Shown: positions 3,108 through 27,276 of the stretch, in pieces
How positions within the stretch are numbered: the stretch's first letter is position 1
Layout: each line of letters starts with the position of its first letter
Source of the DNA: an uncultured Piscirickettsiaceae bacterium
GTDB lineage: Bacteria > Pseudomonadota > Gammaproteobacteria > Methylococcales > Cycloclasticaceae
Length of the DNA: 64,000 bases
Direction: 5' to 3'
NCBI GenBank assembly: GCA_913061075.1
Contig: CAJXSK010000002.1
Location: 62,001 to 126,000, forward strand
Notes under the pieces: generated by a model
Told to the model about the DNA's origin: nothing
Databases searched by the model: none
What the model saw: only the letters and a program-made list of their open reading frames with translations
Made by a program: the position numbers and the translations under genes

Positions 3108-3154
3108 TTTAATCATTTCGTAAAAATTTAAAAATTTAATGAAATGATTAAATT
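3106..3154. repeat. Perfect 14-bp inverted repeat upstream of the activator gene
   Basis: Arms AATTTAATCATTTC (3106-3119) and GAAATGATTAAATT (3141-3154) are exact reverse complements with a 21-nt spacer that is itself A/T-only apart from one G. It could be a weak terminator of the 77-aa gene, although no long T-run follows. It could also be a protein-binding site controlling the activator gene that starts 45 bp downstream. Confidence 0.6.
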
Positions 3155-3198: not shown

Positions 3199-4890
3199 AT
3201 GAGTAACACTGAATTTATAACACCTTCAATTGATGACTTAAAAGAACGTATTCGGTTCTCTTTCGAAACAGGGCATGTGTGGTTAGGCGAACAACGCATG
3301 TTGCTGATGCACAGCGAGGCGATGGGCTCTTTACGCAAAGAGCTGATCGAAACAGTCGGTATTGAACGTGCGAAAGGAATTTTGATGCGTACGGGGTTTC
3401 AAGCGGGAGTTGCTGATGCGAAGTTAGCCATACAATTGCGCCCAAGTGCTAGTCCTGAAGAGCAGTTTTTCGTTGGCCCTCAGCTACATCAACTAGAAGG
3501 TTTTGTACGCGTTACGCCGCTCAAATTCGAAATGGATTTAGAAAAAAATCAGTTCCATATGAAGTTGCTTTGGGGTAGTTCATACGAAAGTGAAGAGCAC
3601 GTAAAAGCATTCGGCCCATCTAAAGAATCAGTCTGTTGGATGGAAATAGGCTATGCCAGTGGTTACAGTTCGGATTATACAGGCCAATCGATATTATTTG
3701 CTGAACATGAATGCCGTGCTAGTGGACACGATTCATGCGTCAGTGAAGGCAGGCCCGTTGCCGAATGGGATAATCCAGAAGAACTCACAAAATATTACGA
3801 ATCACACAGCATCGTGGATCAAATTCTTGATTTGCGTGATGAAGTGGTGACATTGCGTTCTTCGCTGATCGATCAGGAAGAATCAAATTGCAAAGTAATA
3901 GGTACATCAACAGCTATTAAAGAAGCATTGACCTTGTTAGGCAAAGCGGTACAAGGGCCGGTGACAGTTTTATTATTAGGTGAAACGGGAGTAGGTAAAG
4001 AGCTGTTTGCGCGTTCATTACACCGCAGAAGTGATAGAGAAGAACAGCCGTTTATCGCCGTCAATTGTGCGGCAATCCCCGATGATTTATTAGAAGCAGA
4101 GCTTTTTGGTGTTGATAAAGGCGCATATACCGGCGCACATCAATCGCGAGAAGGCCGTTTTGAAAGGGCAGATGGCGGCACGTTATTTTTAGATGAAATT
4201 GGTGATTTATCGTATTCGGCACAAGCTAAATTATTGCGCGTGTTGCAAGAAGGAGAGCTAGAACGAGTAGGTGGCACCAATGTCGTGAATGTTGATGTGC
4301 GAGTGGTGGCTGCAACACACGCTAATTTGTTGGAGAAAGTAGAAAAAGGCGAGTTTAGACGAGATTTGTTTTACCGACTGAACGTGTTTCCCATTAGTAT
4401 TCCAGCCCTTAGAGAGCGACCAGGCGATATTAGGTTATTGGTGGACAGTTTTATCGATCGATATAAAGTCAAATACCATAAAGAAATAAAAGGCATTACA
4501 CAACACGCCATGGCGCAACTCGAAACTCACCCTTGGCCTGGCAATATTAGAGAGTTAGAAAATGTTATTGAACGCGGGGTTTTGTTGTGTGATAACGGAA
4601 AGAAAATAGAGCTGCAACATTTGTTTGCGATGATGGCCATTGAACAATCCCCAGAAGCTGCGGTGAGTCCAACTGGGGACTTAAAAGATATTAAAAAAGG
4701 TGTTTATAACCAATTTGTAGATATGTTTTTTGATGCGCAAAATAATTTATTTGAAATTGAAGAAACGATATTAAAAGAGGCGCTTAACCGGTCTAAAGGA
4801 AATATGTCCAAAGCAGCAAGAGCATTGGGGATGACACGTCCACAATTGGCTTATCGTTTGGGTAAGCTTGATGATAAGGAGGGTATCTGA
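3199..4890 (+). CDS. XylR/DmpR-type sigma54-dependent activator sensing aromatics
   Basis: 563 aa, the size of XylR, DmpR and TbuT. Domains in order: XylR_N effector domain (about 10-115), V4R domain (about 125-190, with the ECRASGHDSC cysteine motif), a short linker (about 205-230), sigma54-interaction AAA+ domain (235-465) and a Fis-type helix-turn-helix (about 530-560, MSKAARALGMTRPQLAYR). Walker A is GETGVGKE (261-268), the sigma54-contact loop is GAYTGA (308-313, a Phe-to-Tyr variant of GAFTGA) and Walker B is GGTLFLDE (326-333). Such proteins bind phenols or alkylbenzenes through the N-terminal domains and activate -24/-12 promoters from upstream sites. Three such promoters occur at 8380, 12543 and 26978, and the window holds no other sigma54 activator. 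The gene is convergent with the AraC-type gene with no spacer. Confidence 0.93.
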   Translation: MSNTEFITPSIDDLKERIRFSFETGHVWLGEQRMLLMHSEAMGSLRKELIETVGIERAKGILMRTGFQAGVADAKLAIQLRPSASPEEQFFVGPQLHQLEGFVRVTPLKFEMDLEKNQFHMKLLWGSSYESEEHVKAFGPSKESVCWMEIGYASGYSSDYTGQSILFAEHECRASGHDSCVSEGRPVAEWDNPEELTKYYESHSIVDQILDLRDEVVTLRSSLIDQEESNCKVIGTSTAIKEALTLLGKAVQGPVTVLLLGETGVGKELFARSLHRRSDREEQPFIAVNCAAIPDDLLEAELFGVDKGAYTGAHQSREGRFERADGGTLFLDEIGDLSYSAQAKLLRVLQEGELERVGGTNVVNVDVRVVAATHANLLEKVEKGEFRRDLFYRLNVFPISIPALRERPGDIRLLVDSFIDRYKVKYHKEIKGITQHAMAQLETHPWPGNIRELENVIERGVLLCDNGKKIELQHLFAMMAIEQSPEAAVSPTGDLKDIKKGVYNQFVDMFFDAQNNLFEIEETILKEALNRSKGNMSKAARALGMTRPQLAYRLGKLDDKEGI

Positions 4891-5901
4891 TTAGTCTTTG
4901 GATTTTTTATGCCGGAATTGTTGTGGGTTAATACCAAACCAGCGTTTAAAGCTGCGACGAAAATTAGCAGCGTCTCGGTAACCAAAAACCAGCGATAAAG
5001 CATCAATAGAGATATTACTGTAACGAAGGTAATAACTGGCTTGAAAAGCATACACCTCATCTTTAATACGTTGAAAAGATGTGTTTTGTTGCTTTAATTT
5101 ACGAATCAGCGTTCTGCTTGACATATTAAATAGTTCAGCCAGTTGTTCTATGGTTAGCACATCACCTAAGTGAGTTGAAAGGTAATCATGTACCTCTGTG
5201 CTCACATTAATGTTTCTTAATTGTTGATGGGCAGTTTCTCGGCATTGTTCCAATGCCATTTGGTACATCTGCAGGTCTGCATTCGGGTTTAGGGTGTCTT
5301 TTAAAGTCAGCGGCAGACGAATCTCAAGGTAGTCGGCATCAAAATATACAGGGCAGTGAAAATAGTCAGCATAGCTGTTTGCATAATCAGGGGTTGCGCT
5401 ATTAATATGTAACTCGGCCTCACCCATAGAACGGCCTAAAATGAATTCAATAACATGTTGTAACAGCATCAGCATGGCTTCAACGAACACCATGTGGGCC
5501 TCATCGAGGTTTTCAGTCAAGGTTAGCCGAATAATGTATTGATCGCCGCGGGTAATAGGGTTGTAGAAAATAAATGGCGTACGTATTTGGCTATAGCGTT
5601 GAAAAATGTCTATCGCATCAGATAATGTTGGGCTATTGATAGCAGCCCAACCTACAGAACCATGCGTGGATGGGTGAAGCAAAGAACCCAATAATAAGCC
5701 AATGGCGGGGTTTTTAGTGGCGTTTTTGGTATTTAAAATAACCTTAACAAACTGCTCTAGGGGAATGAGTTCGTTATCTAGCATGTTGTCCACAGTTAGG
5801 CCTGTTCCGTGCAAAACCTGATCAGCAGACACGCCTTGATTGGCTAGGGCCCGAATAGCCATTTGGACATAACTGTTCGGTAATGTTTTTAATTGAGACA
5901 T
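4891..5901 (-). CDS. AraC-family transcriptional regulator (OruR/ArgR-like)
   Basis: 336 aa from the start I prefer, Met at 5901. That ATG follows AGAGG at good spacing and begins MSQLKTLPNSYVQM, a typical start for this subfamily; the reading frame stays open to an ATG at 5949. The N-terminal two thirds resemble the arabinose-binding-like sensor domain of long AraC proteins. The C-terminus (about 235-335) carries the double helix-turn-helix with LAELFNMSSRTLIRKLKQ and FGYRDAANFRRSFKRWFG. It is divergent from a fatty-acid desaturase gene, and three overlapping TGTCA palindromes lie between them. Control of the desaturase and of itself is the likeliest role. The inducer is not evident. Confidence 0.88.
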   Translation of the reverse strand: MSQLKTLPNSYVQMAIRALANQGVSADQVLHGTGLTVDNMLDNELIPLEQFVKVILNTKNATKNPAIGLLLGSLLHPSTHGSVGWAAINSPTLSDAIDIFQRYSQIRTPFIFYNPITRGDQYIIRLTLTENLDEAHMVFVEAMLMLLQHVIEFILGRSMGEAELHINSATPDYANSYADYFHCPVYFDADYLEIRLPLTLKDTLNPNADLQMYQMALEQCRETAHQQLRNINVSTEVHDYLSTHLGDVLTIEQLAELFNMSSRTLIRKLKQQNTSFQRIKDEVYAFQASYYLRYSNISIDALSLVFGYRDAANFRRSFKRWFGINPQQFRHKKSKD

Positions 5902-5932
5902 GCGTTGACCTCTGATAAAAAAACGATTATTC

Positions 5933-5976
5933 GACACCAGTGTCACCAAATGACACCTTTATGTCAAATAATGACA
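5933..5976. promoter_or_regulatory. Nested TGTCA/TGACA palindromes, candidate AraC-type operator
   Basis: Three short palindromes overlap here: GACAC-CA-GTGTC (5933-5944), GTGTCA-CCAAA-TGACAC (5940-5956) and TGTCA-AATAA-TGACA (5962-5976). The centres of the last two are 21 bp apart, about two helical turns, so bound proteins would lie on the same DNA face. The block lies between the divergent AraC-type regulator and desaturase genes. Confidence 0.6.
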
Positions 5977-6047
5977 CTTCATCATCAACATTTAATTTGT
6001 TTTAATGTACGCGTAGAAAGCTAAAAATATAAATATTAGGAGATAGC

Positions 6048-8379: not shown

Positions 8380-8396
8380 GTGGCATTAAATTTGCG
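8380..8396 (+). promoter_or_regulatory. Sigma54 (-24/-12) promoter of the MaoC-oxidoreductase operon
   Basis: GTGGCATTAAATTTGCG has GG at 8382-8383 and GC at 8394-8395, exactly 10 nt apart, within good TGGCA and TTTGC boxes. The predicted start near 8407 leaves about 26 nt of leader containing AAAGGGG before the ATG at 8433. A palindrome GGTAA-GTT-TTACC (8264-8276) lies about 110 bp upstream, where an activator site would be expected. The match of this palindrome to XylR/DmpR sites is poor. Confidence 0.75.
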
Positions 8397-8432: not shown

Positions 8433-8891
8433 ATGTCCATTCCAAAGCCAAGCAATTGCATGAGCATTGACGATTTAAGTATCGGTATGAAGGCCGAAAA
8501 GGTCTACACAATTAGCCATGAAGATGTGGTTAATTTTTCTAAACTGTCAGGTGACTGGAATCCAGCGCATCACGATGAAGAATACGCGGCGGCGAGTATA
8601 TTCAAACAACGCGTGACGCATGGCATGTTTTCGGTAATCCAGTTTTCAGGCATATTGGGGATGGATTTACCCGGGCTTGGAACCTTGTGGTTAAAACAAA
8701 GCGTTGAATTTCTGCGTCCCGGGTTTTTTGATAATGAATACCGCGCCGTGGTGGAAGTTATCGCCATCAATAAAGAAAATAATACTGTCACCTTTAGCAC
8801 TGAGTGTTTTGATAAGGAAGGCAGTAAATTCGTTAAAGGGGAGGCCGTTGTTAAGCCGATTCCTGCAAAACTAAAACAAGCCAGTCAATAG
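8433..8891 (+). CDS. MaoC-family (R)-specific enoyl-CoA hydratase-like protein
   Basis: 152 aa, a single hot-dog domain of the MaoC/PhaJ type. The hydratase signature is present: GDWNPAHHDEEYA then VTHGM, holding the catalytic Asp/His pair typical of R-hydratases. It hydrates enoyl-CoA double bonds or dehydrates 3-hydroxyacyl-CoA. It is the first gene after the -24/-12 promoter and 10 bp ahead of the fused 2-oxoacid oxidoreductase, so it may act on the CoA thioester that enzyme makes. Not every MaoC protein is catalytic on CoA esters; some are dehydratases in other pathways. Confidence 0.8.
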   Translation: MSIPKPSNCMSIDDLSIGMKAEKVYTISHEDVVNFSKLSGDWNPAHHDEEYAAASIFKQRVTHGMFSVIQFSGILGMDLPGLGTLWLKQSVEFLRPGFFDNEYRAVVEVIAINKENNTVTFSTECFDKEGSKFVKGEAVVKPIPAKLKQASQ

Positions 8892-8901
8892 GTGAGAGAA
8901 A

Positions 8902-11900
8902 ATGTCTGATTCAAATTCTAAAGATTACAAATTTATTCGCGAAGAAGGCCCTGTATTTCTATCGGGTAACCAAGCCTATTTACGGGTTGTATTTGAACAG
9001 CAGCGTCGTGACCGTGATGCCGGTTTAAATACGGGTGGCTTTATTTCCGGTTACCGAGGCTCACCGTTTGGTAATTTCGATACGGAATGTAAAGGTGTTG
9101 AAGCCTCTTTAAATGAGCGCGATATTCATTTTAATCCGGGTGTTAATGAAGCGATGGCAGCGACGGCTATTTGGGGTTCGCAGCAGATTGACTTTTTTGA
9201 AGGCCAACAGTTTGAAGGTGCGTTTGGCCTTTGGTACGGTAAAGGCCCAGGCGTAGATCAAGCAGCGGATGCGCTTCACCATGCCAACTTATGGGGAACG
9301 AGTAAACACGGCGGCGTGGTGATGGCAGTGGGTGATGACCCAATGAGTCGTTCATCCAGTATTCAACAACAAAGTGAATATGTACTGTCAGGCTTATGTA
9401 TTCCGATCATGCATTGTTCATCGGTGCAAGATATTTATGACTATGGCCTTATTGCCTATCAAATGTCGCGTTATGCGGGTGTTTGGATGGCGGTTAAGTC
9501 GGTGTCCGATATCGCTGAGTCTTGGTACATGGTGGATATTGATCCTAAGCGTACAGAGACGGTATTACCCGACCCAAGCGACTTTGTTATTCCAGAAAGC
9601 GGCGTGCACACACGTTGGCCGGATAATTCAGTTAACCAAGATGAGCGCATGGTTAATGCGCGTTTGCCTGCCGTTAAAGCCTTCACACGCGCAAATAAAT
9701 TAAACAAAGTAACACTGGATGCTCAAAAGCGCCGTGTGGGTATTATCACCGCCGGCAAAAGTTACCTTGATACGCTAGAAGCATTGGATGACTTACGTAT
9801 TGATGAAGCGATGCGCGATGAGCTTGGTTTGGCGGTGTTTAAAATAGCCGTTATTTGGCCAATGGAAGAAACGTTAGTACGTGAGTTCGCCGAATCGGTA
9901 GACGAAATTTTAGTCATTGAAGAATCGCGTCCGTTCCTAGAAACACAAGTTAAAGACATCTTATTTGATATGTCAATGGATATTCGTCCGTTGGTGATGG
10001 GTAAAAAAGGCCGTGATCAACAAACACAGTTCCCATCTAATGGTGAATTAACACCAGCACTTATTTCTAAAGCACTGGTTAATTGGTTAAAGCCTTATAA
10101 AACGACTGACTCCATGACTAAATGGATTGATGTGTTAGATAACACCGAAAAGCAACTTAGCGTGCCACGTAATACGGTGGAGCGTACACCGTATTTTTGT
10201 TCGGGTTGTCCGCACAGTTCGTCCACTAAGTTACCGGAAGGCTCAAGCGAACAGCTTATTGGTATTGGCTGTCATTTTCTCGTTGGTTTAATGGACAGAA
10301 ATGGCACCACTTATACGCAAATGGGTGGCGAAGGTGCCACCTGGGCAGGTGCGTCACCGTTCCTTAGCAATAGACACACCTTTGTTAATTTAGGTGACGG
10401 TACGTTTTACCATTCAGGTTCTACGGCTATCCGTCAGGCTATCGCGTCGGAAATAAATATTACCTATAAAATTCTGTTCAACGATGCTGTGGCGATGACA
10501 GGTGGACAATCTTTTGATGGCCCCTTGTCTGTAGAAGGCATTACACAACAAATGCATTCTGAAGGCGCTGCTCGAGTGGTGGTAGTTTCAAGAGAACCTG
10601 AGGCGTTGAATAAATCATTATTTGCACCGGGTACAGATGTGTATCACCGTGATGATTTACAACAAGTGATGAAAGAATTAGCAGACACAAAAGGTGTCAC
10701 CATTCTTGTTTACGAACAAACCTGTGCGACAGAATTACGCCGCCGTCGTAAACGTAAAATTGTGGAAGCCCCTAAAAAACTCACGTTCATTAACTCACGT
10801 GTGTGTGAAGGCTGTGGTGATTGCGGTGTTCAATCAAATTGCCTGTCTGTTCAGCCGTTAGAAACAGAGCTAGGTCGCAAGCGTGTTATTGACCAATCAG
10901 GTTGTAACTTAGACTTCAGCTGCGTGAAAGGTTTTTGCCCAAGCTTTGTGACGATTGAAGGTGGAGAATTGGCAAAAGGCAATGCGGTGAGTTTGTCGGA
11001 TGATGTGTTCGCTGCTTTACCAGAGCCTACACCTAAACCATTAGACGGCGTCTTCGGTTCATTGGTTTGCGGTATTGGTGGAACTGGTGTTGTGACTATT
11101 TCATCGATGATTGGTGAAGCGGCAAAAGCAGAAGGCTTTGCTTCGCAAGTGCTGGATTTAACGGGTATGGCGCAAAAATTTGGCGCGGTGTATTGTCACC
11201 TTAAAGTGGCGAATAATGTTGAAGATCTTAACTCAACACGTTTATCTATTGGTAAAGCAGACTTGCTAATTGGCGCAGATATTGTGACCAGCGCAAGCGA
11301 TGAAGGCATGTCACTGTTACGTGAAGGGCACACTAAAGGTGTGGTCAATTCACACGGTATTGTAACGGGTGCATTTACTCGTGATGGTGACTTTACTATT
11401 CCTGTGGATGATATGAAACAAGCACTAGAACGTTTCACGGGTGCAGATAACTGTAGTTTCTTTGATTCAACAGACGTATCAGAAACACTCACCGGCAATA
11501 CCATTGGCGCGAACATGATGTTGTTAGGTTACGCTTGCCAAAAAGGTTGGTTACCGGTTAAGCGTCAGTCATTGGAAGATGCAATTACAGAAAACGGTGT
11601 AGCAGTAGCTTACAATCAGCGGGTATTTAAAATAGGTCGCTTAATGGCGCATGAGCCAGAAGCTGTTCAAGCGTTAATGGATCAAGGTGCGCCAACACCT
11701 GAATGGGAAGTGCTTTCAGCCACAACGGATGAGTTGATTGCGCGCCGCAAAAAGGATCTTGTTAGCTATCAAAACACGGCTTACTCCAATAAGTATGCGG
11801 CATTGGTATATAAAGTGCGTGAGGCTGAAGCGAAGCTGTCGGGTAACTCGGATGATATTACCGAATCAGCGGCACGTTATCTGTATAAATTGATGGCGTA

Positions 11901-12393
11901 TAAAGATGAGCTAGAAGTGGCGCGTTTGTACACCGATGGCACATGGAAAAAACAACTGGAAGAAAAATTCGCTGGTGATTACAAAATAAAATTCCATATG
12001 GCGCCACCACTTATTTCAAAACGTGACCCCATTTCAGGGCACCTTAAAAAACGTGAATTTGGCGGGTGGATGTTATCGGCATTAAAAATGGCGTCACTGT
12101 TTAAAGGGATGCGTAGCAGTCCATTAAACCCATTTGGTTATTCTCAAGAACGTAAAGAAGATAAAGCAATGTTGGACCAGTACGAAGGCGTGCTAAATCA
12201 AATTATTGATGGGTTAAGTGAAAATAATAAGGAAGCCGCATTAGAAATGGCGCGTGTACCAGAGTTTATTCGAGGTTATGGGCACGTGAGAACGCAAAAT
12301 ATTGAATCTGCCGTTCGTCGTTGGAAAAGTCTAGATGATCAATTTAGAAACCCTAAAAAGATTATAAAGGTAGCTATGGGAACAACGGCGTAA
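8902..12393 (+). CDS. Fused indolepyruvate ferredoxin oxidoreductase-family enzyme
   Basis: 1163 aa, the single-chain proteobacterial form. Members convert 2-oxoacids, classically aryl pyruvates, with CoA to acyl-CoA and CO2 while reducing ferredoxin. Domains in order: pyruvate-oxidoreductase-like pyrimidine domain (about 15-240), TPP-binding domain with LGDGTFYHSG and downstream FNDAVAMTGG (about 495-545), cysteine-rich FeS segments (CEGCGDCGVQSNC near 635 and CVKGFCP near 675), gamma-type domain starting GIGGTGVV (about 720-905), and a C-terminal helical extension of about 200 aa. It follows the MaoC-type gene by 10 bp behind a -24/-12 promoter. Placement inside an aromatic-degradation island suggests an arylpyruvate or similar oxoacid as substrate; that is inference. 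The partner ferredoxin is not obvious nearby. Confidence 0.87.
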   Translation: MSDSNSKDYKFIREEGPVFLSGNQAYLRVVFEQQRRDRDAGLNTGGFISGYRGSPFGNFDTECKGVEASLNERDIHFNPGVNEAMAATAIWGSQQIDFFEGQQFEGAFGLWYGKGPGVDQAADALHHANLWGTSKHGGVVMAVGDDPMSRSSSIQQQSEYVLSGLCIPIMHCSSVQDIYDYGLIAYQMSRYAGVWMAVKSVSDIAESWYMVDIDPKRTETVLPDPSDFVIPESGVHTRWPDNSVNQDERMVNARLPAVKAFTRANKLNKVTLDAQKRRVGIITAGKSYLDTLEALDDLRIDEAMRDELGLAVFKIAVIWPMEETLVREFAESVDEILVIEESRPFLETQVKDILFDMSMDIRPLVMGKKGRDQQTQFPSNGELTPALISKALVNWLKPYKTTDSMTKWIDVLDNTEKQLSVPRNTVERTPYFCSGCPHSSSTKLPEGSSEQLIGIGCHFLVGLMDRNGTTYTQMGGEGATWAGASPFLSNRHTFVNLGDGTFYHSGSTAIRQAIASEINITYKILFNDAVAMTGGQSFDGPLSVEGITQQMHSEGAARVVVVSREPEALNKSLFAPGTDVYHRDDLQQVMKELADTKGVTILVYEQTCATELRRRRKRKIVEAPKKLTFINSRVCEGCGDCGVQSNCLSVQPLETELGRKRVIDQSGCNLDFSCVKGFCPSFVTIEGGELAKGNAVSLSDDVFAALPEPTPKPLDGVFGSLVCGIGGTGVVTISSMIGEAAKAEGFASQVLDLTGMAQKFGAVYCHLKVANNVEDLNSTRLSIGKADLLIGADIVTSASDEGMSLLREGHTKGVVNSHGIVTGAFTRDGDFTIPVDDMKQALERFTGADNCSFFDSTDVSETLTGNTIGANMMLLGYACQKGWLPVKRQSLEDAITENGVAVAYNQRVFKIGRLMAHEPEAVQALMDQGAPTPEWEVLSATTDELIARRKKDLVSYQNTAYSNKYAALVYKVREAEAKLSGNSDDITESAARYLYKLMAYKDELEVARLYTDGTWKKQLEEKFAGDYKIKFHMAPPLISKRDPISGHLKKREFGGWMLSALKMASLFKGMRSSPLNPFGYSQERKEDKAMLDQYEGVLNQIIDGLSENNKEAALEMARVPEFIRGYGHVRTQNIESAVRRWKSLDDQFRNPKKIIKVAMGTTA

Positions 12394-12396
12394 GCT

Positions 12397-12477
12397 ATTT
12401 AATGATTTAATGATTTAATGATTTAATGATTTAATGATTTAATGATTTAATGACTTATATGACTTAATGATTTAATG
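12397..12477. repeat. 8-bp tandem repeat, seven perfect ATTTAATG units plus degenerate copies
   Basis: Seven exact head-to-tail copies of ATTTAATG run from 12397 to 12452. An altered unit, ACTTAATG (12462-12469) and one more perfect copy (12470-12477) follow. The array starts just after the oxidoreductase stop codon and ends about 67 bp before the -24 element of the next promoter, so copy-number change could alter promoter geometry. Confidence 0.95.
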
Positions 12478-12542: not shown

Positions 12543-12559
12543 TTGGCATATTTTGTGCC
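12543..12559 (+). promoter_or_regulatory. Sigma54 (-24/-12) promoter of the envelope cluster
   Basis: TTGGCATATTTTGTGCC has GG at 12545-12546 and GC at 12557-12558 with the required 10-nt gap. The -24 box TTGGCA is excellent; the -12 box TGTGCC is weaker. The predicted transcript start near 12570 leaves about 29 nt with a GAGGGG ribosome site before the ATG at 12599. Confidence 0.72.
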
Positions 12560-12598: not shown

Positions 12599-13591
12599 AT
12601 GAAATTTCGTGCGTTGTTAGTACCGCTAGCTTGCTTAACGTTAATAGCCTGTGAAGCGCCGTTGGTATTAGACGGAGTTGAGCAATCTAAAAAACAACCA
12701 ATTCACCGAACCGACCGTATTCAAACAGCGGCCGCCTTGGGTGATGATGTGGTGATTGCAGGCATTGGTTTTATTTTAAATTCTAACGATGCAGGTAAAA
12801 CGTGGCAACGCACTCAACCTGAAGGTTTACCGGCATTTATTAGTGGGGCTATTTGCCCCGATAAAACGCAAGTAGTTGTAACGGCTGAAAAGCAGGCTTG
12901 GGTCTCAACGGATAGCGGTAAAACATGGCAAACTAATAATCTGGACACAGAAGAAGCGCCACAGCACCTTAGTTGTGGGCCAGATAATCGATTATGGGTT
13001 GCGGCCAGTTTTAGCACCTTACTAAACAGTACCGATCAAGGTAAAACGTGGCAGCAAACAACGTTTGATGAAGATTTAATTTTCACTTTTATTAAATTTT
13101 TCGATGCGCAAAATGGCGTGGCAGTCGGTGAGTTTGGTAGTGTTTATAGTACCGAAGATGGCGGTGAAAATTGGTTGCCAAAAGAAGAGTTTATTCCCAA
13201 TGAGTTTTTCCCATTAGCGGTTGATTTTACTGACAGTCAACATGGCTGGGTCGGTGGTTCAAGCGGTGTTATTTTCCATACAGCAGATGGCGGCGCAACG
13301 TGGGTTAAAGAAGACACCGGTACTGATGCACCCATTTATGGCTTGTCAGCAAGCCCATTGGGCGTATATGCAGCCGGTGGTTTTGGCACGTTTTTAGAAA
13401 GGCAGTCAGAAGTAGACGGCGTTGCTGCATGGAAACGTTCATCGGCGGTTACAACACGCTTTTATCTACGTGCAATTGCGCCACTGGGTGATAATAAGGT
13501 TATTTTAGGTGGTGGAGCGGGAACGCTTCAAGCAATGATTGATGATGGCTCAGGTCAACTGGTCATTGCCAACATTAAGGAAGGGGAGTAA
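12599..13591 (+). CDS. YCF48/BNR-repeat lipoprotein of the envelope cluster
   Basis: 330 aa from the ATG at 12599, which is preceded by GAGGGG. An upstream in-frame ATG at 12500 would put the lipobox about 50 residues in and would start before the predicted promoter. The N-terminus MKFRALLVPLACL ends in a lipobox LIAC, so this is a lipoprotein. At least five Asp-box/BNR-like repeats follow (NDAGKTW, TDSGKTW, TDQGKTW, TEDGGENW, TADGGATW), predicting a beta-propeller like the YCF48/HCF136 assembly factors. Its gene ends 2 bp before the MMPL transporter gene. In many hydrocarbon- and steroid-degrading proteobacteria this four-gene set occurs together. Function is inferred as a periplasmic scaffold or partner of the transporter. 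Confidence 0.85.
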   Translation: MKFRALLVPLACLTLIACEAPLVLDGVEQSKKQPIHRTDRIQTAAALGDDVVIAGIGFILNSNDAGKTWQRTQPEGLPAFISGAICPDKTQVVVTAEKQAWVSTDSGKTWQTNNLDTEEAPQHLSCGPDNRLWVAASFSTLLNSTDQGKTWQQTTFDEDLIFTFIKFFDAQNGVAVGEFGSVYSTEDGGENWLPKEEFIPNEFFPLAVDFTDSQHGWVGGSSGVIFHTADGGATWVKEDTGTDAPIYGLSASPLGVYAAGGFGTFLERQSEVDGVAAWKRSSAVTTRFYLRAIAPLGDNKVILGGGAGTLQAMIDDGSGQLVIANIKEGE

Positions 13592-13593
13592 TT

Positions 13594-15933
13594 GTGGGTG
13601 CGATAACAAATCAACTTAAAAAAATTGATCGCTTAGTCTTTGCATTTCCAAAAGTAACGGCAGGCGTTATTTTGGCGATTACTGCATTCTTCGCTATGCA
13701 AATTCCAGCCGTGAAAATGGTTTCAAACTTTGCTGATTTATTGCCGCAAGGGCATGAGTATATTCAAACGCATAATACGTTGACTGAAACATTTGGTGGC
13801 GCGAACACGGTTATCGTAGATATAAAAGTGGATGAAGGCACTATTTTCACCAACGATGTATTGGCTAGAATTAAACGCCTAACCGATAAAGTGGATGCGC
13901 TGCCTGCGGTCAACCATAACTTGGTGAACAGCTTAACGCACAGGAATACGCGCCGTGTTTGGCTAAACGAATACGGCACCATGAAGTCAGCACCTTATTA
14001 CGATCCGTTAAAAGAACACTATACGGACGAAGAATTGCAAACCATGCAAAACCAAGTGGTGGCAAACCCTCGTGTTTACGGATTGCTGGTTTCTCCAGAT
14101 TTAAAATCCGCGCTTATTAAAGGCACGCTGAATGAAGGTGATCTTGACTACGAAGAAGTATTTACAGCGCTTACAAAATTACGTGATGAAGAAAAGGCAG
14201 ATGGCTTAACCATTTATGCCAGTGGACAGCCTGTTTTGGTTGGTTGGGTAACGTCTTATGTGAGCGAAGTGATTCAGATTTTTGGTTACACAATTGCCAT
14301 TTTATTGTTGTTGTTAATTGCTTATTTTAGAAAATTCTACGGTTTATTATTACCGCTTATCGGTATTGCACTAACCACTACATGGGGTTTGGGTATGTTG
14401 TCCTTATTGGGCTACAACCTAGATCCTTTAATGTTGGTTGTACCATTTTTAGTGTCGGCCAGAGCCATGTCGCATGGTGTGCAAATTGTAGAAAGGTTCT
14501 ACACTGAATTGGGTGAAAGTGGCAATAAAGAAGAGGCTGCAAGAAATACCTTTGAAGGTCTATTTAGACCGGGTTCTTTGGGCGTTATTTCCGATGCGAT
14601 TGGTTTGTTACTTATTTCATTAGGTACCGTGCCTATTAACGACAAACTAGCTATTTACGCCTCACTTTGGGCGGGCAGTGTGATTGTTACGGTGCTGATA
14701 TTCTTACCTGTAGTGCTGCAAATTCTTCCGCAAAAAGGTGAAAGGCCAACAGAGCATCCGTTATTGGAAAAATTATTTCCAGTCGTGTCAAAAATCTCAT
14801 GTACACGTAAAGGTGCGTTAGCAACCTTATTCGTCTCATTGGGTTTGGTGATTGGTGGAGCCTACTTAAGTTCCAAAGTACAAATTGGTGAGTCAGAATC
14901 TGGTTCTCCTTTATTGTATGCAGACCATGATTACAATGTGTCAGCTAACGCCATTAACAGTGCGTTTCCAGGTTCTGAAGAAATGTTTATTCTTGCGCAT
15001 TCAGATAAGCCCCATGGTTTGAAACAACCGGATGCGATTAAAGCCTTGGCTGATTTCCAGAATTACATGATGCTCGACCCAGACCTGGGTGGCACTAAAG
15101 GTCTACCGGACTTGCTGTCGCAGGCAAGCCGTATTATTCGTAATGATGACCCGCGTTGGTTAGTGTACCCAAAAGACGAATTTGAATCTGGCGGTTTAAT
15201 GTTCGCCTATATGATGTCTAGTCCAATTCCGGGTGCGTTGTTAGAGTTCATTGACCCTGATGAACAAAACGCCAATATCGTTTTCTATTATAAAGACCAT
15301 AAAGGCGAAACCATTCGTCGTGCAATACACATGGTTAAAGAATGGAGCAACAGTGCAGCGGCGCAAGTTGAAGGTTTCTCATTGAAACTGGCCGGTGGCT
15401 TAATTGGGGTAACAGCAGCGGTAAACGAAGCATCATATGAAACCAATGTCGTTGTTATTCCTCTGGTTTTTTTATTAATTCTTGTATTTGTAACAGCGTT
15501 TTACTGGTCTGTTCACGCGGGTTGGCTCATGTTATTAGCAATGGGTTTCGCTACCACATTAACTTACGCCTACATGGGTATCGTTGGTTTAGGCATTAAT
15601 GTGAATACCGTGCCTATTTTGGCCGCAGGTATCGGCATTGGTGTGGATTACTCTATTTACATAATGGATAAAATTAAAGAACAGTACGCCAAACTTGGTA
15701 GCTTTGAAGCAGCTATTGAAAAAGCGATTAATACCACCGGTGTGGCGATTGGGTTTACTGCGTTCTCGTTAATAGCCGGTGTGATTATGTGGGTGCTGTT
15801 ATCCACTATGCGTTTCCAGGCAGATGCGGCGATGTTGCTCATCGTTATGTTATTGCTTAATGCTTTGGCAGCAATGTTCTTAGTGCCAGCTTGGGTGATG
15901 ACGTTTAAGCCAAAATTTATTCAGGAAAAGTAA
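13594..15933 (+). CDS. MMPL/RND-superfamily transporter
   Basis: 779 aa starting at GTG, 2 bp after the lipoprotein gene and preceded by AAGGAAGGGGAG. The layout is the RND/MMPL one. One membrane segment lies near 20-40, then a large periplasmic domain (about 45-225), a block of five segments (about 230-390), another segment near 405-425, a second periplasmic domain (about 430-620) and a last block of five (about 625-770). The motif GIGVDYSIYIMDKIKE in the second block is typical of the family. MMPL and HpnN-like proteins move lipids or other hydrophobic molecules using the proton gradient. No membrane-fusion protein or TolC gene accompanies it, so the DUF1302 and DUF1329 proteins presumably complete the path. 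Direction of transport cannot be told from sequence. Confidence 0.87.
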   Translation: MGAITNQLKKIDRLVFAFPKVTAGVILAITAFFAMQIPAVKMVSNFADLLPQGHEYIQTHNTLTETFGGANTVIVDIKVDEGTIFTNDVLARIKRLTDKVDALPAVNHNLVNSLTHRNTRRVWLNEYGTMKSAPYYDPLKEHYTDEELQTMQNQVVANPRVYGLLVSPDLKSALIKGTLNEGDLDYEEVFTALTKLRDEEKADGLTIYASGQPVLVGWVTSYVSEVIQIFGYTIAILLLLLIAYFRKFYGLLLPLIGIALTTTWGLGMLSLLGYNLDPLMLVVPFLVSARAMSHGVQIVERFYTELGESGNKEEAARNTFEGLFRPGSLGVISDAIGLLLISLGTVPINDKLAIYASLWAGSVIVTVLIFLPVVLQILPQKGERPTEHPLLEKLFPVVSKISCTRKGALATLFVSLGLVIGGAYLSSKVQIGESESGSPLLYADHDYNVSANAINSAFPGSEEMFILAHSDKPHGLKQPDAIKALADFQNYMMLDPDLGGTKGLPDLLSQASRIIRNDDPRWLVYPKDEFESGGLMFAYMMSSPIPGALLEFIDPDEQNANIVFYYKDHKGETIRRAIHMVKEWSNSAAAQVEGFSLKLAGGLIGVTAAVNEASYETNVVVIPLVFLLILVFVTAFYWSVHAGWLMLLAMGFATTLTYAYMGIVGLGINVNTVPILAAGIGIGVDYSIYIMDKIKEQYAKLGSFEAAIEKAINTTGVAIGFTAFSLIAGVIMWVLLSTMRFQADAAMLLIVMLLLNALAAMFLVPAWVMTFKPKFIQEK

Positions 15934-16063: not shown

Positions 16064-18052
16064 ATGAAGAACTCTAGATGGCATCTTAAGCCATTAACGG
16101 TAGCTTTTGCACTCGTAGGATTAGTTGGCCTATCGTCGCAACAAGCTGTTGCGTCAATCGACACAGGCGATGATACAACTGAACTCAGTGGTTTTGTTGA
16201 AAATGCAACGTACTTTAGAGATAGCGTTGGTTTAACAAAATTCCGTAATACACTTCAATTAGAAGGTACAAAATTACTCGGTAATTTGGGTGCGTTTAGC
16301 GAAGTGAGCATCAATGGCACGTTCAGGGCCACTTATGATGGTGTGTATGACCTTAACTCAAATGAGTTCGGTGATGATGCGGGTGGTTCAGTGTTGTTAG
16401 AGAGTCTAGTTGATTTTGGCGCAGGGAACTTAGTACCTAATGGCGGCGGGATACCATTAGGTACTCTTACGCCGGCTGGCCTTGTAAATGATGGCTTGAT
16501 TGTTTTAGGCGAGCACCTGCATGATGCTGATGGTGGTGTTACATTCCCAGTCCCTGTTCGTCCATGTGATGAGGATTCACGTGGTTGCTTAGGTGGCTAT
16601 ATGGATGATGATTTGGATGATTTGCGTTATTCAGATTTTAATGACCGTTGGGACTTTATTCGTGAATTGTATATTAATGCAACTATTGATATGGATAGCG
16701 GTACAGCCTTCAACTTGCAAGTAGGTAAAAAACAAGAAGTTTGGGGTCGTACTGATTTGTTCCGTGTGTTGGATGTTCTAAATCCAGTTGATTTCTCAAG
16801 ACAAAACATCTATGACGAATTAGAAGACATTCGTATTCCACTTTGGATGGCCACTGCAGAATGGCAGTTCGGCGCAAATGATGTGCTTGATGACATGAAT
16901 GTTCAGTTTGTGTGGATATTCGATAAATTCCGTCCAAACAGGCTAGGACAGGCTGGTACGCCATACCAAATTTTAGATGCCGGTTCATTGTTTAGAGGGC
17001 TAAATAACTGTTGGGACAATGGTTGTACGGTATCAAACTTTGCTGGCGGAAATACAACAACTAACTTTGGCCCAGGCGTTCTCGGTATTCGTGATGTGCA
17101 TCTACCAGATTGGTCTCTTGAAAACTCTCAGTTAGGTGCGAAATTTGAGGGTGTATACAGAGATATTGGTTTCTCATTAAACGCATTTTATACTCGTTCG
17201 CAACTGCCTTCACTGCGTGGTGGTATACCATCAGACAACCCATTTACAGGTGGTGGATTACCTGGGTTACCACCTGAAGGTGCTTTTGGTCCAGAACCAC
17301 AAGTTTATCCATACTTAATTTCGTTTGATATTCACTTCCCACGTGTTGTACTTGTAGGTGGTTCGTTAGATTATTATGCTGATTCACTAAAAACAGCTTT
17401 CCGCGGTGAGTTGGCTTGGACGAAGGGTGAGGAATTTGCTAATACATTAAAACCACGTTTGTTCTCAGAGTCTGAAGTAGTTCGTTGGGTAATTGGTGCC
17501 GATCACAACTTCTTTATTCGTTCAATCAATAAGAACAAAGCGTTCTTAGCGTCGTTCCAAACATTTGGTCAACATATTTTAGATCATGATCGTGAAAATG
17601 GACCGTTAGGCGAAGTTGGAATTCCAGATAGAGAGAATAACTATATTTCTACTCTATTGCTAAAAGGTTGGTGGTTCCAAGATCGTGTTAGCCCACAAAT
17701 TATTCAAGCGTATGACTGGGGTGCTAATGCATATGTTGTCTCTCCTTCTGTGGATTGGTTGATTAATGATAGTTGGCGTCTACAGGTTGCGGCTAACTTG
17801 AAATTTGGTGATGGCGCACGTAAGTTCTCAGATTGTCGTACTTGTAACCCATTTTCGCCATTTACAGCAACACCATTGCATAACAATGCGGTTGCGCTTC
17901 CATCACCACCATTCCCTCCTGGAACGTTTGCTGCTGATGCAGGCGATATTGGTTTAGGTGGTTTTGAACCACTAGGTCGTTTCCAATCTGGCCCTATCGG
18001 TATGGCGCAAAAAGAAGACGAAATTCAAATTTCACTTCGTTACCGCTTCTAG
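16064..18052 (+). CDS. DUF1302-family outer-membrane beta-barrel protein
   Basis: 662 aa. The N-terminus MKNSRWHLKP plus a hydrophobic stretch ending QQAVA-S is a Sec signal peptide. The chain ends ISLRYRF, with the C-terminal Phe and alternating pattern expected of an outer-membrane barrel. The motif VGKKQEVWGRTDLFRVLDVLNP is characteristic of DUF1302 proteins. Paired cysteines occur in CDEDSRGC, CWDNGC and CRTC, probably forming disulfides in the periplasm or on loops. No biochemical function is established for the family. Its constant linkage with DUF1329, YCF48-like and MMPL genes, as here, suggests a channel for hydrophobic solutes. AAGGGG precedes the ATG. A terminator follows the gene. 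Confidence 0.88.
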   Translation: MKNSRWHLKPLTVAFALVGLVGLSSQQAVASIDTGDDTTELSGFVENATYFRDSVGLTKFRNTLQLEGTKLLGNLGAFSEVSINGTFRATYDGVYDLNSNEFGDDAGGSVLLESLVDFGAGNLVPNGGGIPLGTLTPAGLVNDGLIVLGEHLHDADGGVTFPVPVRPCDEDSRGCLGGYMDDDLDDLRYSDFNDRWDFIRELYINATIDMDSGTAFNLQVGKKQEVWGRTDLFRVLDVLNPVDFSRQNIYDELEDIRIPLWMATAEWQFGANDVLDDMNVQFVWIFDKFRPNRLGQAGTPYQILDAGSLFRGLNNCWDNGCTVSNFAGGNTTTNFGPGVLGIRDVHLPDWSLENSQLGAKFEGVYRDIGFSLNAFYTRSQLPSLRGGIPSDNPFTGGGLPGLPPEGAFGPEPQVYPYLISFDIHFPRVVLVGGSLDYYADSLKTAFRGELAWTKGEEFANTLKPRLFSESEVVRWVIGADHNFFIRSINKNKAFLASFQTFGQHILDHDRENGPLGEVGIPDRENNYISTLLLKGWWFQDRVSPQIIQAYDWGANAYVVSPSVDWLINDSWRLQVAANLKFGDGARKFSDCRTCNPFSPFTATPLHNNAVALPSPPFPPGTFAADAGDIGLGGFEPLGRFQSGPIGMAQKEDEIQISLRYRF

Positions 18053-18139: not shown

Positions 18140-19450
18140 ATGAAAAAATTAACAAAAGGTTTACTTGGAGCGGCTTTATTAAGCGTCGCTGCAAGCGCAT
18201 CAGCGGTAACCGATGCAGATATTGATAAGTCGTTTAAACCCTACACAAACGGCTTTCCAACAGTTGAAGGTGTTGTGCCAGGTTTAGTGATTAATAAAGA
18301 CAATGTGGATACATACGCCAGTGTTTTAGACGAAGGTATGATTAAACACATTAAAGACGGTTGGGTAGAAATTACTGTCGGTGAGCCAATGGATTTTGTG
18401 CTTAACCAAGGGTATATCGATGCGACTAAAGCGGGTGCAAAAAACCATAAATTAGGCGCTAAAGTAGGTGAGATTGAAGGTTATGTGGCCGGCCGTCCAT
18501 TTCCAATTGAGCCAAGTTTAGATGACCCACGTGCTGGTGAAAAAATGGCATGGAACTTCCAGTACGGTTATAACTGGGGCGATGGTGCTGCGATTTCACC
18601 TTTCTATTGGAAGTATCGTAATATGAATACGGGGCAAATCGAACGTACGATTAAGTTTAATTTTTACTTTTTAAATTTTGCTCACCGTGTAAACCATGAG
18701 CCAAAACCTGAGTTTCCAAAAAACCCAGGTGAATTGTTCCGTGGTATTTATTTGAATGTTGAAGAACCGTTTGATGTTAAAAACACGCAGCTTCTTATTC
18801 ACCGTTCACAAAATGATTTGAAACGTGATAACGCTTGGTTGTATCTTGGTTTTCAACGTCGCGTGCGTAGATTGGCAACAGGCCAAGTAACGGATTCATT
18901 CTTGGGTTCTGACCTTATGATTGAGGATTTCGAGGGCTACAACGGTCGTATATCTGATATGAATTGGACATTCAAAGGTACAAGGACGATGTTGTTACCT
19001 ATGTATGACTCTTCTAAGCAAAAACGTACAGCCGAGTTTAATGAGTCTGATGGCTACACATATTCTACGTATCACGGTAAAGGCGGCTGTTTCCCTAACG
19101 TAACGTATTCTTTAAGAAAGGTGTATGTTGTTGAATCTGACCCAGTTGATCCTAACCATCCTATTGGCAGACGTATGCATTATATGGATGCACAAACCTT
19201 TACATTACCTCGTACGGTTACTTACGATCGCCAAGGTAAATATTGGAAATCTTGGATGATTGGCCAAGCACACCCAGATTCACACCACCCCGTTAACAAA
19301 GGTACAGGTGTTTCTGTTGATGATTCGTTTGGTATGATGGACGTACAAAGCATGCATTGCACAACAGGTCAATTTAAAGGCCTTGTTGATCCAAGTTTAG
19401 TTAAGAAGAAACAATTCAGCGTCCAGTATATGCGCTCATTTGGTAAGTAA
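18140..19450 (+). CDS. DUF1329-family periplasmic protein
   Basis: 436 aa. The signal peptide is MKKLTKGLLG plus a hydrophobic core ending SASA-V. The mature protein matches the DUF1329 family, which has a LolA/LolB-like fold and is therefore expected to hold a hydrophobic ligand or lipid in a beta-sheet groove. Aromatic residues are frequent, for example NFQYGYNWGDG and FYFLNFAHR. It sits 88 bp after the DUF1302 gene and completes the envelope cluster; strong AAGGAG precedes the ATG. I infer that it shuttles a hydrophobic molecule between the MMPL transporter and the outer-membrane protein. A terminator closes the unit. Confidence 0.87.
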   Translation: MKKLTKGLLGAALLSVAASASAVTDADIDKSFKPYTNGFPTVEGVVPGLVINKDNVDTYASVLDEGMIKHIKDGWVEITVGEPMDFVLNQGYIDATKAGAKNHKLGAKVGEIEGYVAGRPFPIEPSLDDPRAGEKMAWNFQYGYNWGDGAAISPFYWKYRNMNTGQIERTIKFNFYFLNFAHRVNHEPKPEFPKNPGELFRGIYLNVEEPFDVKNTQLLIHRSQNDLKRDNAWLYLGFQRRVRRLATGQVTDSFLGSDLMIEDFEGYNGRISDMNWTFKGTRTMLLPMYDSSKQKRTAEFNESDGYTYSTYHGKGGCFPNVTYSLRKVYVVESDPVDPNHPIGRRMHYMDAQTFTLPRTVTYDRQGKYWKSWMIGQAHPDSHHPVNKGTGVSVDDSFGMMDVQSMHCTTGQFKGLVDPSLVKKKQFSVQYMRSFGK

Positions 19451-26886: not shown

Positions 26887-26902
26887 TTTATCATATGATG
26901 AA
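26887..26902. promoter_or_regulatory. Candidate XylR/DmpR-type upstream activator site
   Basis: TTTATCATATGATGAA matches the TTGATCAATTGATCAA-type palindrome bound by XylR/DmpR relatives at 12 of 16 positions and has a perfect ATCATATGAT core. It stands about 80-90 bp before the -24 box at 26980. A second site, usual for this class, was not found. Confidence 0.6.
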
Positions 26903-26977: not shown

Positions 26978-26994
26978 ATGGCATATATATTGCT
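26978..26994 (+). promoter_or_regulatory. Sigma54 (-24/-12) promoter of the phenol hydroxylase/meta operon
   Basis: ATGGCATATATATTGCT has GG at 26980-26981 and GC at 26992-26993, 10 nt apart, with TGGCA and ATTGCT boxes near consensus. The predicted transcript start is about 27005, only 2 nt before the first ATG of the operon. Confidence 0.78.
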
Positions 26995-27006
26995 CTATAT
27001 AACAAG

Positions 27007-27276
27007 ATGACTATGACAAACAAAGATATTTCAGGTATTCCAGGGCAACGCTATGTGCGGGTAACGAATGTTGTTAACGAAAAATACGTAGAGTTTGAAT
27101 TTGCAATAGCCGACCCAACTATTAATGTTGAGTTGGTATTGCCTTTCGAGCATTTTAAAAAGTTTTGTGAAACCAATCAGGTGAAGCACTTAACGCCTGA
27201 ACAAGAGGCAGCTGTTGACTACGATAAGTTGAAATGGCGGTTCGGTGTTCCAGGCTTTGACGAAAACGATTTATAA
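27007..27276 (+). CDS. dmpK: Phenol hydroxylase assembly protein P0 (DmpK type)
   Basis: 89 aa, like DmpK/PhK P0 (about 92 aa), which is needed to build the active phenol hydroxylase but is not part of the purified enzyme. The N-terminus MTMTN resembles DmpK, and YVEFEFAIADP and KWRFGVPG are family motifs. It is the first gene of the operon, as in other multicomponent phenol hydroxylases. A second ATG at 27013 is also possible. No Shine-Dalgarno sequence precedes either ATG, and the predicted transcript would begin only 2-8 nt upstream, so translation may be leaderless. Confidence 0.9.
   Translation: MTMTNKDISGIPGQRYVRVTNVVNEKYVEFEFAIADPTINVELVLPFEHFKKFCETNQVKHLTPEQEAAVDYDKLKWRFGVPGFDENDL

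Follow-up and report, generated by a model that had tools for sequence, protein, structure and literature searches.

What is a perfect array of short tandem repeats doing between the end of one operon and the sigma54 promoter of a predicted hydrocarbon exporter? The window, by which we mean the whole stretch of 64,000 nucleotides that was analyzed, carries such an array in a Cycloclasticus genome (the source genome), and the array might be a control site, the remains of one, or a spacer of variable length. Our answer, to which we assign a probability of about 0.5, is that slippage in this lineage expanded an old activator site (UAS) and that the resulting cluster of weak registers is still functional. 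The features on which the argument rests are collected in Table 1.

Table 1. Positions within the window of the array, the neighboring genes and the candidate control elements
Feature	Positions	Strand	Remarks
UAS-like site upstream of activator gene	3109..3124	+	9.9 bits
UAS-like site upstream of activator gene	3136..3151	+	13.9 bits
XylR/DmpR/MobR-type sigma54 activator	3199..4890	+	XylR_N, V4R, Sigma54_activat, HTH_8
MaoC-IOR gene pair	8433..12393	+	between ADH and YCF48 in source genome and G007 only
(ATTTAATG)7 perfect run	12397..12453	+	57 bp (7.1 units); sequence, TRF, shuffle comparison
Six overlapping UAS-like 16-mers (TTAATGATTTAATGAT/C)	12399..12454	+	8-bp steps, 7.6 bits each; candidate function
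Degenerate units extending array	12454..12477	+	TRF array end at 12477
Sigma54 -24/-12 promoter TGGCATATTTTGTGC	12544..12558	+	kept at equivalent place in 5/6 relatives with YCF48 gene
YCF48/BNR (COG4447-like, AmeC-like) protein	12599..13591	+	first cluster gene
RND/MMPL transporter, HAE3-like (AmeD-like)	13594..15933	+	
DUF1302 protein (AmeA-like)	16064..18052	+	
DUF1329 protein (AmeB-like)	18140..19450	+	
UAS TTTATCATATGATGAA of phenol hydroxylase promoter	26887..26902	+	reference site
Sigma54 promoter, phenol hydroxylase operon	26979..26993	+	

The repeat array

The array was detected by TRF at 12397 to 12477 with a period of 8, 10.0 copies, 94% matches and a score of 139; the second-best of the 17 TRF rows within the window scored 50. 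The initial annotation had described seven perfect 8-bp units followed by degenerate copies, in agreement with these figures. Dinucleotide shuffling of the window, repeated 100 times, gave period-8 runs of 21 at most, versus the 57 bp observed. No other copy of three tandem units was found in the 2.26-Mb genome, no perfect array of period 5 to 12 exceeded 3.6 copies in 400 kb sampled from it, and a search for the repeat in plasmids gave no matches. The two-unit pattern, with up to two mismatches, had 26 near-matches in the 17 other genomes of the genus, 4 of which lay in the orthologous promoter. The array starts three bases past the stop codon of an indolepyruvate-oxidoreductase-like gene (IOR, 8902 to 12393). 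Being short, perfect, tandem and located at a promoter, it has the form expected of phase-variable repeats. Unit number varies between species, from about three in G002 and G007 to seven perfect units in the source genome; in G002 the short repeat is identical in two near-identical contigs, probably representing two strains. A coding or frameshift switch was ruled out, as the unit gives stop codons in every frame.

The ATTTAATG unit consists of A and T except for one G, and it had been suggested that such units might bend DNA or bind IHF-like proteins. Phased curvature would not be expected, because repeats every 8 bp do not keep step with a helix of ~10.5 bp per turn and no unit contains an A-tract of at least 4. 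The composition, together with an AraC-type gene close by (4891 to 5949), would also suit sites for another protein, whether H-NS-like, IHF-like or the AraC-type regulator itself. We consider this very unlikely: the IHF consensus does not fit the units by eye, and the likely operator of the AraC-type regulator is a 21-bp-spaced repeat beside its own gene (5949 to 5988), unlike the array.

The sigma54 promoter and the predicted exporter cluster

Between the end of the array and the -24/-12 element at 12544 we counted 66 bases, so that the 67 bp given in the initial annotation was right within one base. The array lies 67 to 147 bp before the -24 box, which puts it at roughly -93 to -173 relative to the expected start, and occupies the zone, ~100 to 200 nt upstream of a -12/-24 promoter, in which UASs are located. 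A lone -24/-12 consensus is no better than chance (23 matches with at most one mismatch versus 22.7 expected). By a home-made weighting, a good element was observed before the first cluster gene in six of the seven genomes carrying an ortholog, the source genome included, the exception being G007. The sigma54 promoter predicted at 12544, which had already been proposed from the sequence of this locus, is supported by this conservation.

A full-length YCF48 ortholog was found in 7 of the 61 genomes searched, all within the genus's 18, and the best named matches to the gene were Cycloclasticus MAGs (93%, 85% and 75% identical). No convincing sigma54 box was found near the YCF48 gene in distant relatives (Dechloromonas, Motiliproteus and others; 6 of 54 loci), where the best scores were 15.5 to 18, and the comparison was therefore confined to the genus.

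The genes downstream encode COG4447, RND, DUF1302 and DUF1329 proteins, that is, envelope and efflux functions, consistent with the envelope cluster named earlier. The same kinds of protein make up the hydrocarbon exporter AmeABCD of Castellaniella defragrans, described as an outer-membrane protein, two periplasmic proteins (AmeC being COG4447) and an HAE3-type RND pump (PMC6394551). The likeness is one of protein kinds, and the exporter function in Cycloclasticus is predicted.

The predicted activator and its site

A single protein in the source genome has an XylR_N domain, and it is encoded in the same cluster, giving any XylR/DmpR-type UAS at this locus one candidate cognate activator. Its best NCBIfam match was the phenol regulator MobR, under the model cut-off (601 versus 999 bits). 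An XylR_N activator was present in all seven genomes with an exporter ortholog and in 12 of the 18 in the genus, and its recognition helix, M[TS]RPQLAYRLGK, was conserved across the six genomes compared.

Activators of the XylR/DmpR/AphR type are described as binding UAS pairs, which are palindromes, usually 29 to 42 nt apart, before sigma54 promoters (PMC6449761, PMC3900584), and a site spacing of three helical turns is reported for XylR and DmpR (PMC6449761). According to the same source, the AphR motif is GCTTGATCATTTGATCATGC and AphR is the predicted regulator of the same four-gene exporter set in Betaproteobacteria (PMC6449761). In Aromatoleum, a solvent-efflux cluster is reported to depend on the sigma54 activator EtpR (PMC4630880), and further regulators treated in the literature include MphR (PMC3063778) and DmpR (PMC7264223).

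For the UAS model TTNATCAWWTGATNAA, only phenol hydroxylase promoters (10 genomes) were used, with no training UAS from an exporter promoter. In the source genome the phenol hydroxylase operon begins at 27007. A sigma54-like element is conserved before phenol hydroxylase in all 10 genus genomes with a strong first-subunit match, and the palindrome, with one or two differences, stands 78 to 127 bp before the -24 box in every one of these promoters; it resembles the AphR motif as published (PMC6449761). The ten sites were chosen by eye out of a palindrome listing and gave leave-one-out scores of 16.1 to 23.4 bits. Genome-wide, the pattern with at most one mismatch was mildly enriched (16 sites versus 8 for the reversed control), and single matches therefore mean little. 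UAS-like sites were also present before the activator gene in all five genomes checked (best 7.5 to 18.2 bits), these being the source genome, G005, G007, G008 and G017, which suggests that the activator may be autoregulated. In the source genome the sites at 3109 to 3151 form a near-perfect inverted repeat just before the gene.

The array as a possible set of weak activator sites

Judged by the palindromic core of XylR/DmpR-type UASs, each register of the array scored 7.6 bits, with a shuffle p of 0.12 taken alone. A score this high was attained by about 6% of the AT-rich pieces of 220 bp taken from the genome, and the ATTTAATG unit ranked 3 of 35 permuted units. Two pairs of registers lie 32 bp apart, or ~three helical turns, as in paired sites; within the genus, however, 9 of the 10 phenol hydroxylase promoters have one strong UAS only, which we counted against a role for paired registers. 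Counted against the enhancer reading as a whole were the nonsignificance of single registers, the losses in G007 described below, and the arrangement of the array units as direct repeats versus the palindromes of the reference sites.

Outside the array, no activator site above 3.8 bits was found between 11400 and 12544. The initial annotation had placed the array where an activator must loop to the promoter. The part of this proposal that holds is that an enhancer-binding protein probably acts in this zone; the idea of the array as a looping spacer is unsupported, since the best sites are the array units themselves. A phase-variable spacer, in which unit number would alter how far the promoter lies from a separate activator site, or on which helical face, is for the same reason improbable, the sequence upstream of the array being coding as well. 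Perfect seven-unit 8-bp arrays are nonetheless of the slippage-prone kind, and control by spacing is known from the account of Neisseria nadA (PMC2791445).

The predicted enhancer zone across the genus

Matches to the UAS model were observed in the ADH-YCF48 intergenic region of all five relatives in which the promoter is retained, with 21.6 bits in G013, 18.1 in G005, 13.2 in G017, 11.1 in G002 and 8.2 in G008 and shuffle p values of 0.002 to 0.026 in all five. The score in G007 was 1.7 bits (p = 0.21). The match in G002, TTAATGATTTGATGAT, is that genome's own degenerate 8-bp repeat, one base off the register TTAATGATTTAATGAT, and this repeat can be aligned to those of the source genome and G007.

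An 8-bp periodicity was kept in the exporter upstream regions despite sequence divergence: lag-8 self-similarity was top or tied among lags 4 to 15 in all seven YCF48 upstream regions (p 0.002 to 0.037), with lag 8 tying with lags 9 and 12 in G005. Elsewhere such periodicity was rare: p fell below 0.05 for one of the 10 phenol hydroxylase regions, for neither of the 2 MaoC regions, and for one of 30 sigma54-like promoters in the source genome (30 loci of 51 matches). A lag-8 score of at least 9 was reached by none of 2,000 AT-rich pieces; these pieces overlap and are not independent, and the seven species, being related, are likewise not independent.

Motifs of the form ATGAC-N4-ATCAT, which are FNR/CRP-like, were noted in the enhancer zone of G008 (L040, 9645 to 9897) and G017 (L039, 10211 to 10480). 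They may be UAS half-sites or sites of another regulator; an FNR-like reading was set aside, the UAS model being preferred by judgement.

The MaoC-IOR insertion

The YCF48 gene is the divergent neighbor of an alcohol dehydrogenase gene in five of the seven genomes (G002, G005, G008, G013 and G017). IOR occurs in 7 of the 18 genus genomes and is located elsewhere in five. The possibility that the array is part of the IOR 3' end was ruled out: no such repeat follows IOR in the four compared genomes that have it elsewhere (the fifth, L215, was left out), and the array therefore did not arrive with IOR.

G007, the nearest relative, still has three units, but its UAS score is gone and so is the sigma54 promoter; the promoter can evidently disappear when MaoC-IOR stands upstream. 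The G007 region (L036, 12173 to 12303) contains three GTTTAATG units but no sigma54 box before YCF48; by eye, a long-loop hairpin accompanied by a T-run is visible there. A scan found neither a terminator nor a sigma70 promoter between IOR and YCF48 in the source genome or G007. Because no terminator-like site was found, read-through from IOR into the exporter cluster is possible in the source genome.

These observations bear on whether the enhancer has decayed. After MaoC-IOR landed upstream, transcription from the sigma54 promoter of MaoC, for which there is a candidate at 8381 to 8395, might have come to extend into the cluster, and an unconstrained UAS remnant would then have been expanded neutrally by slippage. 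The array registers score far under intact UASs, and G007, with the same insertion, lost UAS and promoter alike, a loss that we also counted against retained function. We regard decay as possible but on the doubtful side. The -24/-12 box at 12544 remains intact in the source genome, and the array outscores all the sigma54-like promoter regions examined in the genome but that of phenol hydroxylase (31 rows, 30 of 51 matches).

A proposed course for the array

Descent of the array from a UAS seems to us quite likely, given the matches in relatives; that it binds the activator and functions at present has at best an even chance. On the reading we prefer, expansion of an old enhancer, the ancestral zone ~120 to 180 bp before the sigma54 start of the YCF48 cluster would have held a UAS for the activator encoded at 3199 to 4890. 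The UAS TTNATCAWWTGATNAA consists of two 8-bp near-repeats, which could have served as a slippage template, and the resulting array would be in register; with this intrinsic near-repeat of the XylR-type site, slippage would be prone to build arrays there. On the branch to G002, G007 and the source genome, the site would have turned into TTAATGATTTRATGAT or a more decayed form, and in the source genome the altered site would have been amplified to seven perfect units. Upon meeting an aromatic effector, the activator would bind the array and contact the sigma54 polymerase at 12544, switching on the Ame-type exporter when aromatics are present. Several weak registers and two 32-bp-spaced pairs might offset their individual weakness.

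A stronger form of this proposal is an enhancer set by repeat number, in which every unit supplies one weak UAS register, n units supply ~n-5 phased pairs, and efflux is switched or graded with their number. In this form, which we think unlikely, fewer than six units would give zero phased pairs and seven would give two, a count that rests on four units making 32 bp, or ~three helical turns.

Relation to known systems

Repeat-tuned promoters are already known (PMC2791445, PMC4081817). An expansion of a sigma54 enhancer by tandem repeats was not found in the literature searched, which mostly excluded subscription journals. As described, the UAS pairs of XylR, DmpR and AphR share with the present locus the activator class, a position 100 to 200 nt upstream and the predicted exporter target set, and share with the sites of its relatives a 16-bp palindromic core, whereas in the source genome weak registers overlap at 8-bp steps within a direct-repeat array. 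The array stands at the place of the activator's predicted binding site in related species and looks like a stretched, probably weakened form of that switch site before an efflux cluster. The nadA repeat of Neisseria meningitidis is likewise a short slippable repeat upstream of a promoter and beside regulator sites, but in the published account it spaces repressor operators and exists in variants (PMC2791445), whereas the repeat in the source genome is itself the candidate activator site. The T-tract rheostat of Helicobacter pylori sabA is comparable in that repeat length could grade promoter output; it is described as a homopolymer by the core promoter that alters RNA polymerase contacts, with no sigma54 enhancer (PMC4081817).

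At this locus a microsatellite is connected with an enhancer for a well-studied class of activators, and the 8-bp near-repeat of the UAS suggests why arrays arise there. If functional, the array would be a case, from a genus important in marine oil degradation, in which slippage tunes a sigma54 enhancer through site number, not spacing; if not, it would illustrate clearly how an enhancer decays once an operon has been inserted. Were the repeat-number model true, the internal 8-bp periodicity of XylR-type enhancers would predispose them to such tuning.

Two minor observations concern sequences apart from the promoter. At least three ATTTAATG units are present in each of two IMG/VR viral contigs, L157 (~4255) and L158 (~1526), in unrelated contexts, so that an independent origin of the unit is possible. 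The 21-bp direct repeat at 5949 to 5988 has AATGACAC half-sites, lies between the AraC-type gene and a fatty-acid-desaturase-like gene (6048), and is likely, by prediction, an AraC-family operator.
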